Assembly: GCA_938083085.1 (NCBI GenBank)
Contig: CALLKX010000012.1
Span: 1-64,000, forward strand
Source of the DNA: an uncultured bacterium
Lineage (GTDB): Bacteria; Planctomycetota; UBA1135; GCA-002686595
Length of the DNA: 64,000 bases
Reading direction: 5' to 3'
Numbering within the stretch: position 1 is the first letter of the stretch; each line of letters starts with the position of its first letter. Position numbers and translations under genes: made by a program. Below, in pieces: positions 7,248 through 19,002 of this stretch. A model generated the notes under the pieces. It was not told where the DNA came from, made no database searches, and saw only the letters and a program-made list of their open reading frames with translations.

Positions 7248-8609
7248 TCAAGGCGCGTCGCCGCCCTCGAGGGGCGTGATCCAGCCCCACCCCTCGGCGC
7301 GGCTGAGATCCACCGCGGGATCCACGAGCGGCTGGAAGGCCCGACCGTTGAGGGCGCAATACGCGTTCGCCCGGACGACCACTTCGCCGTGCCCCTGCTC
7401 CTCGGCGCGGGCGCGCAGCTCCCGTGCGAACCACGCGATGAGCTCGGGGTTCCCGGCGAGGATGTCGAGCTGGTCGTCGGTGAGCAGCGCACGCCAGTCC
7501 GTAGCCACCTCCCGGGGCGGGTCCCCGGCGGTCACGACGAAGTCAACCTCGCAGTCCTTGCTCGCGATCATCATCCGCCACGAATAGAGCGTTCCGCGCT
7601 CGGTCCAGGCGGGCTGACCGGACAGGACCCAGGGGCGCAGCGGCACGATCAGCTGCGCCGCGAACCAGAGGCCAAGGGCCGGGAGCACGAGGCGCTGTGC
7701 GCTGGCGGAGGGTGACCAGCGCCGCGGGGGCGAGGGCGGCACGCCGAGGCGCAGGACCCGCCGCGACCAAGCCGGGTCGACGAAGAGGGCGGTGAGGGAG
7801 AGAGCCAGTATCGGAAAGATGCCAATGGGGAACAGCACCTGGTTGATGCCGTGGAAGAGCACGGAGGCCACCACCGCCAACGCCCGCGTGCGCCGCCAGA
7901 GCAGCCCGGGGATCACCAGGAGATCAAAGAGCATTCCCGCCCACGACAAGGCGACCCAGGCCTCTCGGCCCGCGAGGACGTCGGCGAAGGGCCACCCCTG
8001 GGCCTCCGCCACCGCCAGCACGTGGGGCCCGAAAGGCTCGCCCAGCTGAAGCCAATCGGCGTTCCACTTGGAGAGCGCGCCGAACAGATAGAGCACCGCC
8101 ACCTGACCCCGCAGGAGCCAGAGGGTCCAGGCGGGCACCTCGTCGACCGCTCGTGAGGGGTTGGCGCGCGTGTCCCGGGACCCGGCGCGGCCCAGGGGCA
8201 GCCAGCAGGCGAGGAACGCGAGCAGGACGATGAGGTAGTCGTGGTTGTTCGAGTGCGTCCGCTCCAGGAGGAACGTGTACGTCAGGCCCAGGAATAGGGC
8301 CCAGGAGGCGAGCCGGGTCCAGCGGCCTGCCGCGAACGCGACCGCCGCGGCGAGGAGCGCCGAGAAGTGCAGGAGCATCCCTTCGCCCGGCCACGGCGAG
8401 AGCCACTCGAACCCCGAGTGCGGGACTCGAAGGACAGGGTCCACGTAGACCCGCCGGGCCCACCCGTACTGCAGGTAGTCCAGCAGGTGCCAGGCGAGGA
8501 GCACGCCGAAGGCGATCCGGAAGAAGACCAGCGGCGCCACGTCCACGGGCGCCATGAGCGCGCCGCCGGGACTCGCTCTCCGCCTCCCGTCTTCCGATCC
8601 GTTCCCCAT
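7248..8609 (-). CDS. HTTM domain protein, vitamin K-dependent gamma-carboxylase-like membrane protein
   Basis: A 453-residue integral membrane protein with about eight hydrophobic segments between residues 25 and 330 and a hydrophilic C-terminal third. LYLFGALSKWNADWL (about 173-187, with Lys181) and the segment around FHGINQVLFPIGIFP match the horizontally transferred transmembrane domain shared with the animal vitamin K-dependent gamma-glutamyl carboxylase, whose catalytic lysine lies in the equivalent place. Bacterial members are of largely unknown function; carboxylation is not implied. It stands alone, with TAGCCT 9 nt before the start and no Shine-Dalgarno. A start at Met19 (closer to the first membrane segment) is an alternative. 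Confidence 0.8.
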   Translation of the reverse strand: MGNGSEDGRRRASPGGALMAPVDVAPLVFFRIAFGVLLAWHLLDYLQYGWARRVYVDPVLRVPHSGFEWLSPWPGEGMLLHFSALLAAAVAFAAGRWTRLASWALFLGLTYTFLLERTHSNNHDYLIVLLAFLACWLPLGRAGSRDTRANPSRAVDEVPAWTLWLLRGQVAVLYLFGALSKWNADWLQLGEPFGPHVLAVAEAQGWPFADVLAGREAWVALSWAGMLFDLLVIPGLLWRRTRALAVVASVLFHGINQVLFPIGIFPILALSLTALFVDPAWSRRVLRLGVPPSPPRRWSPSASAQRLVLPALGLWFAAQLIVPLRPWVLSGQPAWTERGTLYSWRMMIASKDCEVDFVVTAGDPPREVATDWRALLTDDQLDILAGNPELIAWFARELRARAEEQGHGEVVVRANAYCALNGRAFQPLVDPAVDLSRAEGWGWITPLEGGDAP

Positions 8610-8782: not shown

Positions 8783-10084
8783 ATGACCCACCTCCTCCTG
8801 GCCCTCGCGGCCCTGGCGCCCTCCGGGGACGTCGGCGACGATTTGATCCTCTTCAAGGCGCCCGTCCAGCTCATGGCCGGCAACGCGGAGCTGGGGCGCA
8901 GGAAGATGTACCCCTCGCCCGCCGCCTTCGACGTGGACGGAGACGGGACGCAGGACCTGGTCCTTGGCGGCCTTTCGGGGCGCGTGACCTGGTCGCGGCG
9001 CACGGCGGACGGGCTGAGCCCCGAGAAGCCGATGGAGCGCACCGACGGAAAGCAGCTCAGCTTCAACAACTGGTGATGCATCGGCATGGGTTCACAGTTC
9101 GTGGACCTCAACGCCGACGGACACCTCGACTACCTCTCGGCCACCTTCGACGGCTCGCCCCACGTCAGCTGGGGCGGCGATGCGGGCTTCGCGGAGCCGG
9201 TGAGGCTCGTGGACGGCGCGGGTGAGCGCTTGCTCGTCTCCTCCTACTGGGACTACGACGAGGAGGCGCACCTGACCACCGGCCGCGCCATGCCCGATGG
9301 CAAGCCGGCCAACCTCCGGGGCATCTCCGCCGTCGCCATGGACTGGGACGGCGACGGCGACCTCGACCTCCTCCAGGGGAGCTACGAGAAGGGACACCTC
9401 TTTGTCCAGATGAACGAGGGGTCCCCCTCGGAGCCCCGCTTCACGGGTAAGAACGTGCGCGTCATGGCCGGCGGCGTGCCGCTCGAGGACAAGGCCAAGA
9501 TGACCGCACCGCGGCTGGTGGACTGGGACGCCGACGGCGACCTCGACCTCGTCTACGGGACGTTCGGTGGTCCCAACGGCATCGCCGGTGTCTACCTGCT
9601 GATCAACCAGGGGCAGGATGGCGCGCCGAGCTTTGCCGCGCCCCGCACCCTCCTCCAGGTCCGAGGCGAAGAGCTGCCGACTTCGCCCGTTGGGCCCGTT
9701 GAGGGCCTCTATCCCGAGGTCACCGACTGGGACAAGGACGGGGACCTGGACCTGATCGTCGGGGGCTACTCCCGCTGGCGCGCCGAGGCGCCCACGCTCG
9801 ACGCAGAGCAGACCACGGAGCTCGCCCGGCTGCGCGCCCTTCACGAGGCCGCCTCGAGCGCCTCGGATAAGCTCTCGGAGGCCTTCAGGGAGAAGCTCGA
9901 CTCTGAGGAGGAGAGGGCCAAGACCGACGAGGAAAAGGAGGCCGCCTGGGATCGCGTCTACGGGGAGTTCAAGGACCGCATGGACGCCGCTCGTAAGGCT
10001 CGCAATGAACTCCAGGGGCAGATCGACGAGTTCGATCCGCCGAAGAAGCGGACGCCCGCCGTCTGGTTCTTCGAGCGAGGCTAA
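8783..10084 (+). CDS. FG-GAP/VCBS repeat protein with one in-frame TGA (candidate selenoprotein)
   Basis: A short hydrophobic N-terminus (about residues 1-14) suggests export. Beta-propeller FG-GAP units with calcium loops follow: DVDGDGTQD (about 52-60), DLNADGHLD, DWDGDGDLD, DWDADGDLD and DWDKDGDLD, then a charged coiled-coil-like tail (about 335-420). The frame is closed by one TGA at codon 98 (9074-9076), between FNNW and CIGMGSQFVDL, yet homologous-looking propeller sequence continues in the same frame on both sides for 433 codons in total. The TGA is followed by a SECIS-like hairpin, so selenocysteine (giving Trp-Sec-Cys) is possible; a nonsense mutation or base error is the alternative. 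The P460 gene begins 1 nt after the stop. No Shine-Dalgarno is obvious. Confidence 0.72.
9081..9117 (+). promoter_or_regulatory. Candidate bacterial SECIS element
   Basis: Starting 4 nt after the TGA, TCGGC (9081-9085) pairs with GCCGA (9113-9117) as a lower stem; after an internal loop, GGTTCAC (9089-9095) pairs with GTGGACC (9101-9107) including one G-U. The apical loop AGTTC carries a G at its second position and a following U, and that G lies 20 nt beyond the TGA. Known bacterial SECIS elements (for example fdhF of E. coli) have a G in the first two loop positions about 16-37 nt after the UGA. Not tested by a search tool. Confidence 0.45.
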
Positions 10085-10085
10085 C

Positions 10086-10745
10086 GTGCGCTCCACGCGC
10101 CACCGCTTCCCCGGCCTCGCGGCGCTCGCCCTCCTCTGCGCATGTAGCGCGGACGAGGTCGCGCCCGTGCCCGCAAGGGGGGCCATCGTGGCGATGGTGC
10201 GCGCTGCCGCGGATGCCGTACCCGAGCTCCCGGTAGTCGGGCCACACCTCAACTGGTCGCCCTTCAGCTGCATGATGCCCCCAGCGGCGCGGGCGCTGCA
10301 CTCCACCGTCGACGCCGAGGGCGGCCACGGCTCGAAGATCTACGCGCTCCGCTCCAACCAGGGCGAGGCGTACATGAAGCTCGGCACCGAGGAGGCGGTC
10401 GAGCTCCCGCTCTTCACCGTGCTCGTGAAGGAGGCGTTCGCCCCCGAGCTCCACGCGGGGGAAGACCCGCCCTCCCCCCACTCCACCGCGGGCTGGGAGC
10501 TGGCCGCGAGCCAGGCCTACATCCCCTTCGCCGAGCGTGACGGCCTCACCTACCGGACCGGCGAGCCCCGGGGGCTCTTCGTCATGCTCCGCCTGCCCGA
10601 GGGCACCCCCGACACGATGAACGGCTGGGCCTTCGGCACCGTGGACCCCGCCGGTCGCGTCACCGGAGCAGGGGCGATGGAGAGCTGCATCCGCTGCCAC
10701 CGGACCGCCGAGCACGGCGGTCTATTCGGCTGGCTCACCCATTAG
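10086..10745 (+). CDS. Cytochrome P460-like c-type haem lipoprotein
   Basis: A 219-residue lipoprotein: signal with lipobox LCAC (Cys20), then a P460-type fold. The strand pattern around PLFTVLVKEAFAPE (about 108-121), GLFVMLRLPEG and GWAFGTVDPAGR resembles cytochrome P460/c'-beta proteins, and a single haem-c site CIRCH sits at residues 201-205 near the C-terminus, as in that family. Members bind haem in the periplasm and oxidise hydroxylamine or bind NO; function here is not known. GTG at 10086 is the start because it follows the FG-GAP stop by one base and directly opens the signal peptide. The pair is clearly one operon. Confidence 0.75.
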   Translation: MRSTRHRFPGLAALALLCACSADEVAPVPARGAIVAMVRAAADAVPELPVVGPHLNWSPFSCMMPPAARALHSTVDAEGGHGSKIYALRSNQGEAYMKLGTEEAVELPLFTVLVKEAFAPELHAGEDPPSPHSTAGWELAASQAYIPFAERDGLTYRTGEPRGLFVMLRLPEGTPDTMNGWAFGTVDPAGRVTGAGAMESCIRCHRTAEHGGLFGWLTH

Positions 10746-15958: not shown

Positions 15959-17698
15959 ATGAAGGCTCGCGATCGCAGAATCTCCGCCGGCCCCCTCGCC
16001 TGGTTCGGGTTGGTCAGCCTGGGCCTCTACGGCTGCGGAGGCGACACGCCCGCCGGAGGCACGCCTGAACCGAAGGCCGCTGATGGACCTGCGAGCCAGC
16101 TGTTCACCGACGTGACGGCGTCCAGCGGCGTCCGCTTCTCTCACGGCTCCGGTGCCGCCGGGAACTGGATCCTCACCGAGATCATGGGCGGCGGCGGCGC
16201 GCTGTTCGACATGGACGGTGACGGGGACCTGGACCTGCTCCTCCTCCAGGGCGGCGCCGAACCCGGCTCCTCCACGACCGCCCAGGCGGGCGAGGGGCAC
16301 GCGCTCTTCCGCAACGATGGACAGGGCACCTTCACAGACGTGAGCGAAGGCGCCGGGTTCGAGTCTCTCACCGGGTACGCCATGGGCGCGGCGGCCGGGG
16401 ATGTGGACGGCGATGGGGACGTGGACCTCTACATCTCACAGCAGGGGGCCGACGCGCTCTTCCTGAACGAGGGTGGCGGTCGCTTCGCAGACGCGACCTC
16501 GGGGTGGAACGCGGGCGTGAAGGGCTGGTCGACCTCGGCCGCCTTTGGAGACCTGGACGCCGACGGGGACCTGGACCTCTACGTGGCCCGATACATCGAG
16601 CTCGACCCCAAGATCACCTGCAACGACGCCGCGGGGCGGCGGACCTACTGCCCGCCAGGCAGCGGGGCGCCGGTCCACGACGTGCTGCTCATGAACGAGG
16701 GCGGCTCCTTCCGTGATGCGAGCGCCGAGGCAGGGCTCGTCGAGGTGCCCGCCCCAGGATTGGGGGTCGTCCTCGAGGACCTGACCGGCGACGGGCGGCT
16801 CGACGTGTACGTGGCCAACGACGGCCAGGCGAACCAACTCTGGGTCCCTGACGGCGAGGGCGGCTGGCGCGACGAGGGATCCACTCGCGGGATCGCCCTG
16901 AACCAGAACGGCTTCGCCGAGGCGAGCATGGGCGTCGTGGTGGAGGATCTGGACCAGGACGGGCTCTCGGACCTCTTCATGACGCACCTCCAGGAGGAGA
17001 CCCACACCCTGTACCGCGCGCGCGGCGCAGGGGCGTTCAGTGACCGCACCGGGCAGGCGGGCCTCGGGGTCATGACCCGGCCCAACACGGGCTTCGGCGT
17101 GACCGCCTTCGACGTGGAGCTGGACGGGGACCTGGACCTCGCCATCGCCAACGGGCGCGTCCGCATCGGACCGGCCCCCGAGGGCTGCAAGCTCGAGGGG
17201 GCCTGGGCGCAGCTCGCCGAGGCCAACTCACTCCTGATCGCCGACGGCGCGCGCTTCACCGATGAGAAGGAGCGCGCCCTCGCCCTCACGGGCCCGCTGC
17301 TCGTGGACCGCTGCGTGTTCCAGGGGGACCTCGACGGAGACGGCGACGTGGACCTCGTGGTCAGCGGCAACGAGAGCGCAGCGCGCGTGCTACGGAACGA
17401 CGCGTCCCGCGCGGGCGACTGGATCACGCTCGACCCCAGGCTCGACGGGGCCAGCGCCACCGGCCTCGGCGTCCAGGTCAGGGTGACGACACCCGACTTC
17501 CAGCTGACACGCACCACACGCGCGTCGGACGGGTATCAGTCCAGCCGTGACCCCCGCGCGCACTTCGGCGTCCCCGGAGCCAAGGGCGGGGTCGAGGTCG
17601 AGCTCCGCTGGCCGGACGGCCTCCGCGAGCGCTTTGCTGGCCTCGCGACGGGCAGCGTGCACCAACTCCTCCGCGGCAGCGGCGAGGCCCTCCGATGA
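15959..17698 (+). CDS. CRTAC1-like FG-GAP/ASPIC-UnbV lipoprotein
   Basis: A 579-residue lipoprotein: signal with LYGC lipobox (Cys26), an FTDVTASSGVRFSH opening typical of CRTAC1-like proteins, at least five calcium-loop FG-GAP repeats (DMDGDGDLD near 84, DVDGDGDVD, DLDADGDLD, DLTGDGRLD, DVELDGDLD, DLDGDGDVD) forming a beta-propeller, and a C-terminal ASPIC/UnbV domain (LGVQVRVTT, then SRDPRAHFGV and VEVELRWPDG). Such proteins are abundant in planctomycetes and Acidobacteria; their role is thought to be surface binding or adhesion but is not established. ATG at 15959. The downstream TPR lipoprotein overlaps its stop by 4 nt, so both are made together. Confidence 0.88.
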   Translation: MKARDRRISAGPLAWFGLVSLGLYGCGGDTPAGGTPEPKAADGPASQLFTDVTASSGVRFSHGSGAAGNWILTEIMGGGGALFDMDGDGDLDLLLLQGGAEPGSSTTAQAGEGHALFRNDGQGTFTDVSEGAGFESLTGYAMGAAAGDVDGDGDVDLYISQQGADALFLNEGGGRFADATSGWNAGVKGWSTSAAFGDLDADGDLDLYVARYIELDPKITCNDAAGRRTYCPPGSGAPVHDVLLMNEGGSFRDASAEAGLVEVPAPGLGVVLEDLTGDGRLDVYVANDGQANQLWVPDGEGGWRDEGSTRGIALNQNGFAEASMGVVVEDLDQDGLSDLFMTHLQEETHTLYRARGAGAFSDRTGQAGLGVMTRPNTGFGVTAFDVELDGDLDLAIANGRVRIGPAPEGCKLEGAWAQLAEANSLLIADGARFTDEKERALALTGPLLVDRCVFQGDLDGDGDVDLVVSGNESAARVLRNDASRAGDWITLDPRLDGASATGLGVQVRVTTPDFQLTRTTRASDGYQSSRDPRAHFGVPGAKGGVEVELRWPDGLRERFAGLATGSVHQLLRGSGEALR

Positions 17699-19002
17699 AC
17701 CGATCCCCCCTGGCCGCCGCCCTCCTCTCCCTCGCCCTGTACACCGGGGCCTGCGGACCAACGGAGCCGGACCTGGCCCTCCCCGCCCCCCCGCTGCTGG
17801 ACACCAGCACGATGGAGCCGCTGGTGGCCGAGACGCTCGGCGCCGCCCGGGCGGCGGTCGTGGCCGCTCCCCAGGACGCGCAGCGCTGGAGTGAGCTGGG
17901 CCTCGCCCTCGACGCCCACTTCTTTCTAGAGGAGGCCGAGCAGTGCCTCGCCGTGGCGATCGAGCTGGACCCGACCCTCTTCAGGGCGGTCTACGACCAC
18001 GCGGTGCTGGGGACCATGCTGGAGCGGGAAGTGGACGAGGTGGCGGCGCGCTTCGAGCGAGCGGGGCAGCTGCGTGACGACTACCCGCCGGTCTACGCCC
18101 GCCTGGGCGACTTCCTGCTCGCGAGCGGCGACGCGGCCGGTTCCATGGCCGCCTTCGAGCAGGCTCGCGAGGTCTCGGGCGGCCTCGACTACGAGTACGA
18201 CTACGCCACGCTGGGCATCGGGCGTGCGCTCCTTGACCAGGGAGAGACAGAGGCCGCTGTGGAGCGACTGGCGGAGCTGCACCAGCGCTTCCCCGGGGAC
18301 CCAGGTCTCGCCACCGCTCTCGGCCAGGGCCTCACCATGCTCCAGCGAGTGAACGAGGCCGCCGCCGTGACCGCGCGCCAGAAGGCAGCAGACGAGGGCA
18401 AGGTCCAGCTCGGGGACTCCGTGCGGCGGGACATCATGACCCGCTCCCGATCAGCGGCCATGAACTTCCAGCGCGGCGAGGCCATGGTCCGCCGCCGCGA
18501 GTTCGCCGCAGCCGCGGTCGAGTTCGAGCGGGTCCTCACGGTGGACGAGGACAACCGCACCGCGCGGCTCTACCTCGCCAGCGCCCTCATGGAGCTGCGG
18601 CGCATCCCCGAGTCCCGCGCGCAGCTCAACGCCGTCCTGAGAGACAGCCCGGGCGACCTCGACGCCCACCGGATGCTGGGGCTCTTCGACGCCGAGTCCG
18701 GCGCCTTCGAAGAGGCGGACCTGCACTTCAAGACGGTCTCCCGCGACGCCCCGCTCGACAACCTCGGCTTCCAGGCCTGGGTCACCGCGCTCGGGGGCAT
18801 GGGGCGCTGGGACGAGGCGCTGTTCCGCATCGAGCAATGGAGCGCGGCGTCCCCATCGCTGGCCGAGCCCGCCTACCTGCGAGCCATGGCGCTGTTCAAC
18901 GCCAACCGGCGTGAGGAGGCCTTCCAGGCCCTCGAGGCTGCCAAGGCGCTGGCTCCGGGACACCCCATTCGGGCACAAGCCGAGCGAATCCTAAGTCGCT
19001 AG
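17695..19002 (+). CDS. TPR-repeat lipoprotein
   Basis: A 435-residue lipoprotein with lipobox TGAC (Cys20) and roughly eight to nine tetratricopeptide repeats across residues 60-430 (for example AQRWSELGLALDAHFFLEEA, then FVYARLGDFLLASGD-like and AYLRAMALFNANRREEAFQA units). TPR solenoids are protein-interaction scaffolds. Its ATG overlaps the stop of the CRTAC1-like gene (ATGA), which makes it the obligate partner of that protein; a paired ASPIC plus TPR arrangement recurs in planctomycetes, sometimes fused in one chain. It probably sits on the periplasmic or outer face of an envelope membrane. No catalytic motif is seen. Confidence 0.85.
   Translation: MNRSPLAAALLSLALYTGACGPTEPDLALPAPPLLDTSTMEPLVAETLGAARAAVVAAPQDAQRWSELGLALDAHFFLEEAEQCLAVAIELDPTLFRAVYDHAVLGTMLEREVDEVAARFERAGQLRDDYPPVYARLGDFLLASGDAAGSMAAFEQAREVSGGLDYEYDYATLGIGRALLDQGETEAAVERLAELHQRFPGDPGLATALGQGLTMLQRVNEAAAVTARQKAADEGKVQLGDSVRRDIMTRSRSAAMNFQRGEAMVRRREFAAAAVEFERVLTVDEDNRTARLYLASALMELRRIPESRAQLNAVLRDSPGDLDAHRMLGLFDAESGAFEEADLHFKTVSRDAPLDNLGFQAWVTALGGMGRWDEALFRIEQWSAASPSLAEPAYLRAMALFNANRREEAFQALEAAKALAPGHPIRAQAERILSR

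Follow-up and report, generated by a model that had tools for sequence, protein, structure and literature searches.

A gene in the window (the whole 64,000-nucleotide stretch of Planctomycetota DNA that we analysed) very probably encodes a selenoprotein of a kind that we did not find in the present catalogue, in which UGA codon 98 of an FG-GAP (integrin-alpha-like) propeller, itself probably exported, specifies selenocysteine (Sec). We place the probability of this reading at roughly 0.93, there being no protein-level proof from mass spectrometry or 75Se. A first-pass annotation had suggested Sec at this codon, and the proposal is now strongly supported by the homologues (TGA in 124 of 133, Cys in 7), by a SECIS hairpin and by the presence of Sec machinery. 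The exchange of Sec and Cys at the codon, the SECIS structure and the machinery are established by sequence comparison; export and function are inferred.

Results

One conserved TGA interrupts a propeller gene

The FG-GAP beta-propeller gene occupies positions 8783-10084 of the forward strand and ends in TAA. Its frame contains a single internal stop, the TGA at 9074-9076 (+), which is codon 98; read as Sec and followed directly by Cys99, this codon yields a protein of 433 residues. As the first-pass annotation had described, FG-GAP sequence lies on both sides of the TGA, and the product matches Pfam FG-GAP_3 (PF13517) at 68.1 bits, against a gathering cut-off of 26.9. Three TGAs in the window have coding-like flanks on both sides; the one at 9074-9076 is accompanied by the strongest hairpin, and one of the other two is an ordinary gene end. 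The first residues, MTHLLLALAALAPSG... (8783-8830, +), form a probable N-terminal export signal, a call based on the hydrophobic start and the low pLDDT of residues 1-20 and made without a signal-peptide predictor.

The nearest orthologues are 84-85% identical to the window protein and carry TGA at the same codon, and in 101 related genomes almost all full-length homologues, including ones only about 33% identical, proved to share this TGA. We aligned homologue DNA at the Sec codon, where almost all distinct sequences of this first set had TGA, and then widened the search to 392 genomes across Planctomycetota, with metagenome assemblies among the source genomes. The combined set comprises 133 distinct stretches from this phylum, the window sequence among them. 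Codon 98 is TGA in 124 of these, TGC or TGT in 8 and TCC in 1; seven of the eight Cys codons stand in a true motif, and an outlier (L106) has Cys at the codon without the motif. Alignment of homologues at this codon, proposed earlier as a check, thus returned Sec or Cys and never Trp, which occurs in none of the 133 stretches. At one locus (L076), the first of two copies (101-1060) has Ser (TCC) in place of Sec; it lies just before a TGA copy (1296-2231) and is possibly a duplicate that has lost the site.

Had only the window been available, a nonsense mutation, a pseudogene or a base-calling error in its genome would look identical to recoding, as the first-pass annotation had cautioned. A further 123 distinct sequences, however, drawn from many genera and families, share this TGA, and the protein is conserved on both sides of it. 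Because more than 100 independent sequences share the codon, base error is excluded, and conservation of the TGA across homologues refutes the caveat as a whole; we give this explanation practically no weight.

The Cys forms are few and lie within the Sec family. Six of them (NIYCCVGGQPRFVD) come from genomes of one genus that are 99-100% complete, none of which contains selA above the family cut-off, compared with 13 of 13 Sec-form genomes examined in parallel. The genome of the seventh Cys form (G278) does have selA. On a tree from which the two site columns were omitted, Cys rows are nested among Sec rows and three Sec/Cys changes are needed, one of them in the divergent outlier L106.

The propeller family includes several subfamilies, and at three loci (L084, L091 and L053) two Sec-type FG-GAP genes lie near or adjacent to each other, sometimes from different subfamilies. 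A strict TGA-plus-SECIS pattern was found in 73 of the 392 sampled Planctomycetota genomes, with up to four sites per genome, and its reversed control in 0 of 392. This pattern was composed after members had been seen and therefore gauges spread rather than proving structure; nevertheless, its recurrence across the phylum and the empty control argue that the association of TGA and hairpin is not chance.

A SECIS hairpin maintained by compensatory change

RNA folding reproduced the bacterial SECIS hairpin claimed earlier at 9081-9117 (+). Its 7-bp upper stem pairs 9089-9095 with 9101-9107 and is capped by a 5-nt apical loop, AGUUC (9096-9100), whose second position is a G (9097) with 20 nt separating it from the TGA; the UGA-to-loop distance is 19 nt, and the folding energy of 9077-9118 is -18.6 kcal/mol. 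Published bSECIS limits call for a loop of 3-9 nt, an upper stem of 4-16 bp, a G at loop position 1 or 2, a UGA-loop distance of 16-37 nt and an MFE of at most -7.5 kcal/mol (PMC13188914), and the window hairpin meets them all. Across the family, the loop G is present in 97.6% of members and the energy limit is met in 88%, with about 12% missing it over the short stretch folded. Rfam returned no SECIS-like match near the gene.

The structure is retained through compensatory changes and lost in Cys homologues. In ungapped stretches anchored on the codon, stem pairs 16-21/27-32 (offset 0 being the T of TGA) are standard in 94% of cells for Sec forms, compared with 57% for Cys forms; sliding one arm gives 30-53%. 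The residue at codon +9, Val or Ala, tracks the codon used at +6 (CCA/TCA with GTG, 94 cases; CCG with GCG, 21; CTG with GCA, 2). Mapped on a tree from which these columns were left out, the corresponding A-U/G-C pair switch accounts for as many as 10 changes, of which well-supported branches force at least 3. Codon choice is similarly constrained: Pro at codon +6 is CCA in 73 of 99 cases against a flank background of 5% (p about 1e-72), all 36 Gly residues at +5 are encoded by GGT (11% in the flanks), and all 99 Val residues at +9 by GTG (34%). In a synonymous-recoding fold test, Sec forms gave a median z of -2.3, five control positions in the same genes gave values near 0, and Cys forms gave +0.9.

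Sec machinery is present and TGA remains a stop

The genome from which the window derives encodes selA, selB, selD and a tRNA-Sec with anticodon TCA, so that the machinery whose absence would have told against Sec is in place. selD adjoins selA (locus L181, C48:103692-104636) and carries an in-frame TGA of its own in a UxxK context (CAGUAAK), making it a selenoprotein gene itself; UxxK is the motif listed for SelD (PMC13188914).

Reassignment of TGA to a sense codon, or its reading as Trp, would also keep the propeller frame open, and a misread TGG is imaginable given that the residue before the TGA is often Trp. Yet TGA elsewhere acts as a stop, as had been stated of this DNA, and even ends the same gene: in two orthologues (L004 and L007), the first TGA is read through and the second terminates the frame, and 65 of 124 members have TGA as the next stop beyond the Sec codon. 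In addition, Trp is found at codon 98 in none of the homologues, the alternative residue there being Cys, and the hairpin that follows the TGA is specific to Sec forms. Reassignment is in our view close to untenable, and Sec insertion remains the preferred reading of the codon.

A near-invariant Sec-Cys pair in a predicted propeller

The AlphaFold model of the window protein (pLDDT 92.7, pTM 0.88) consists mostly of beta strands, with a C-terminal helical hairpin at residues 341-417 (9803-10033, +; helices 341-378 and 382-417) before the final propeller strand (421-430). The best matches to solved structures, by sequence and fold, include integrin alpha chains (alpha-4) and ITFG2 of the KICSTOR complex. 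TM-scores to the integrin and ITFG2 propellers are low, only about 0.3, so the assignment as a propeller rests jointly on the repeats, the strand pattern and the structure matches.

When TGA is counted as Cys, Sec98 and Cys99 are conserved at 99% and 98%, respectively, across the family, as strongly as the Asp and Gly residues of the calcium loops, and Trp97 is conserved at 69%. The Trp-Sec-Cys site proposed in the first-pass annotation is accordingly better described as a Sec-Cys pair, which is near-invariant, preceded by an optional Trp. In the model, the loop holding the pair precedes the strand that leads into a calcium-type DxDxDG blade, and exposure of this loop is inferred from the prediction alone. 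One paralogue (L068:2019-3278) has Sec followed by Glu (NWUEVGASPQF) rather than Sec-Cys.

The predicted fold also bears on whether the gene might give two products, with translation stopping at the TGA to leave a short N-terminal peptide and starting afresh at ATG 9086 to make a second protein. That ATG is located 9 nt past the TGA, and 9086-10084 is a listed open reading frame. Whole subfamilies, however, have no Met at this point (VWUCTSSTPQF and TGUCVGFGPQL, for example) and still retain both the frame and the TGA, the six one-genus Cys forms read straight through, and a single propeller fold is predicted to span codon 98. We judge a split product very improbable and retain the full-length selenoprotein as the product of the gene.

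The gene neighbourhood is not conserved

Immediately downstream, at 10086-10745 (+), lies a lipoprotein-like gene that encodes a CXXCH haem motif and shows weak similarity to cytochrome P460 (Pfam PF16694, 19.5 bits, below the cut-off of 27). Coupling of the propeller to a haem protein had been suggested earlier, and the two genes are indeed adjacent in the closest relatives; the arrangement is confined to these, and the haem-type protein was rejected as a general partner and regarded as a local neighbour only. Clustering of neighbourhoods revealed no conserved partner across families. The divergent neighbour at 7248-8609 (-) encodes a protein with HTTM and vitamin K-dependent gamma-carboxylase lumenal domains (Pfam PF05090, PF22777). 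Elsewhere in the window, at 15959-17698 and 17695-19002 (+), an ordinary FG-GAP protein with an ASPIC/UnbV domain shares an ATGA overlap with a TPR gene, and this second FG-GAP protein has no internal TGA.

Discussion

In the mechanism that we propose from these comparisons, UGA codon 98 would be decoded as Sec by tRNA-Sec and SelB, with SelB recognising the SECIS hairpin just downstream of the UGA, whereas normal stops, other UGAs included, would still terminate translation. The product would bear its near-invariant Sec-Cys pair in the loop entering the calcium-type DxDxDG blade.

A selenol-thiol pair that hardly varies, in a protein inferred to be exported, suggests either redox chemistry or binding of soft metals. 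By analogy with most selenoproteins we rank redox first: at roughly even odds, the pair may be a redox-active selenol/thiol outside the cytoplasm that acts on peroxides, disulfides or similar compounds, a role that is inferred. No substrate, partner or conserved neighbour that would favour any specific function was found. Vicinal selenol-thiol pairs are also good ligands for soft metals, a matter of general chemistry, and Sec could be inserted as we propose with the Sec-Cys pair binding or sensing a metal or metalloid such as Hg, Cu, As or Cd instead of performing redox catalysis. A calcium-site propeller with no obvious cofactor pocket in its sequence would suit such a role, and some CU-motif selenoproteins are organometal- or metal-binding (SaoL, HgcA and MbdU; PMC13188914). 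Against it, the gene neighbourhood shows no recurring metal-resistance genes, and the idea rests on inference with no binding data. We consider metal binding the less likely role but the main rival to redox chemistry, which stays our first choice.

More broadly, we lean, with limited confidence, toward an ancient class of exported selenoproteins that spans the phylum and comprises several paralogous subfamilies, with Sec-Cys giving an integrin-like propeller a new kind of redox or metal site outside the cytoplasm. If so, the class would represent a major, overlooked share of the Planctomycetota selenoproteome. There are several practical implications. First, ordinary annotation would truncate the propeller gene. 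Second, deep-Sep by its own statement needs many Cys homologues, and since Cys versions here are rare and nested within Sec forms, homology methods that depend on Cys could miss the family. Third, the gene provides a testable case of Sec use in a propeller whose export is inferred. Finally, the many covarying SECIS elements of the family form a natural collection in which recognition by SelB can be studied.

These results add a selenoprotein family on an FG-GAP beta-propeller scaffold that is widespread in Planctomycetota (73/392 sampled genomes). The first-pass annotation had known of no FG-GAP selenoprotein, and we likewise found none in the published catalogue, NCBIfam or the literature. 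A 2026 review lists 119 prokaryotic selenoprotein families and notes that most characterised bacterial selenoproteins have a thioredoxin-like fold (PMC13188914). No NCBIfam model matched the propeller protein above its cut-off, and no relative was found in PHROGs or on plasmids. Literature searches combining FG-GAP or VCBS with selenoprotein or selenocysteine retrieved no relevant paper, and for beta-propeller combined with bacterial selenoproteins the papers listed all dealt with animal and human selenoproteins. A study of seaweed Planctomycetes reports selenoproteins, and those named in its main text are others (PMC4807772).

The propeller family shares with the 119 catalogued families a Sec-UGA followed by a SECIS element, Cys homologues at the codon and the presence of SelA, SelB, SelD and tRNA-Sec, and differs in its scaffold, as no FG-GAP, VCBS, integrin or propeller family appears in Table 1 of the catalogue (PMC13188914). 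UC- and CU-motif selenoproteins (the Csac_0668 family, SaoL, HgcA, KCU-star and DUF1573 UGC) likewise have Sec next to or near Cys, but their folds and residue order are different, Sec directly preceding Cys in the window protein. With the FG-GAP and integrin-alpha propellers (PF13517, PF01839; integrin alpha-4, ITFG2), the protein has in common repeats with DxDxDG loops. The matched integrin-type propellers are adhesion, scaffold or complex subunits and, to our knowledge, carry no Sec-Cys pair, in contrast to the near-invariant Sec98-Cys99 of the window protein. SELENBP1 (methanethiol oxidase) is a propeller protein linked with selenium; it was absent among the sequence or fold matches listed and, unlike the window protein, has no encoded Sec. 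As far as could be checked, the family is thus new, joining a known decoding mechanism to a new scaffold.
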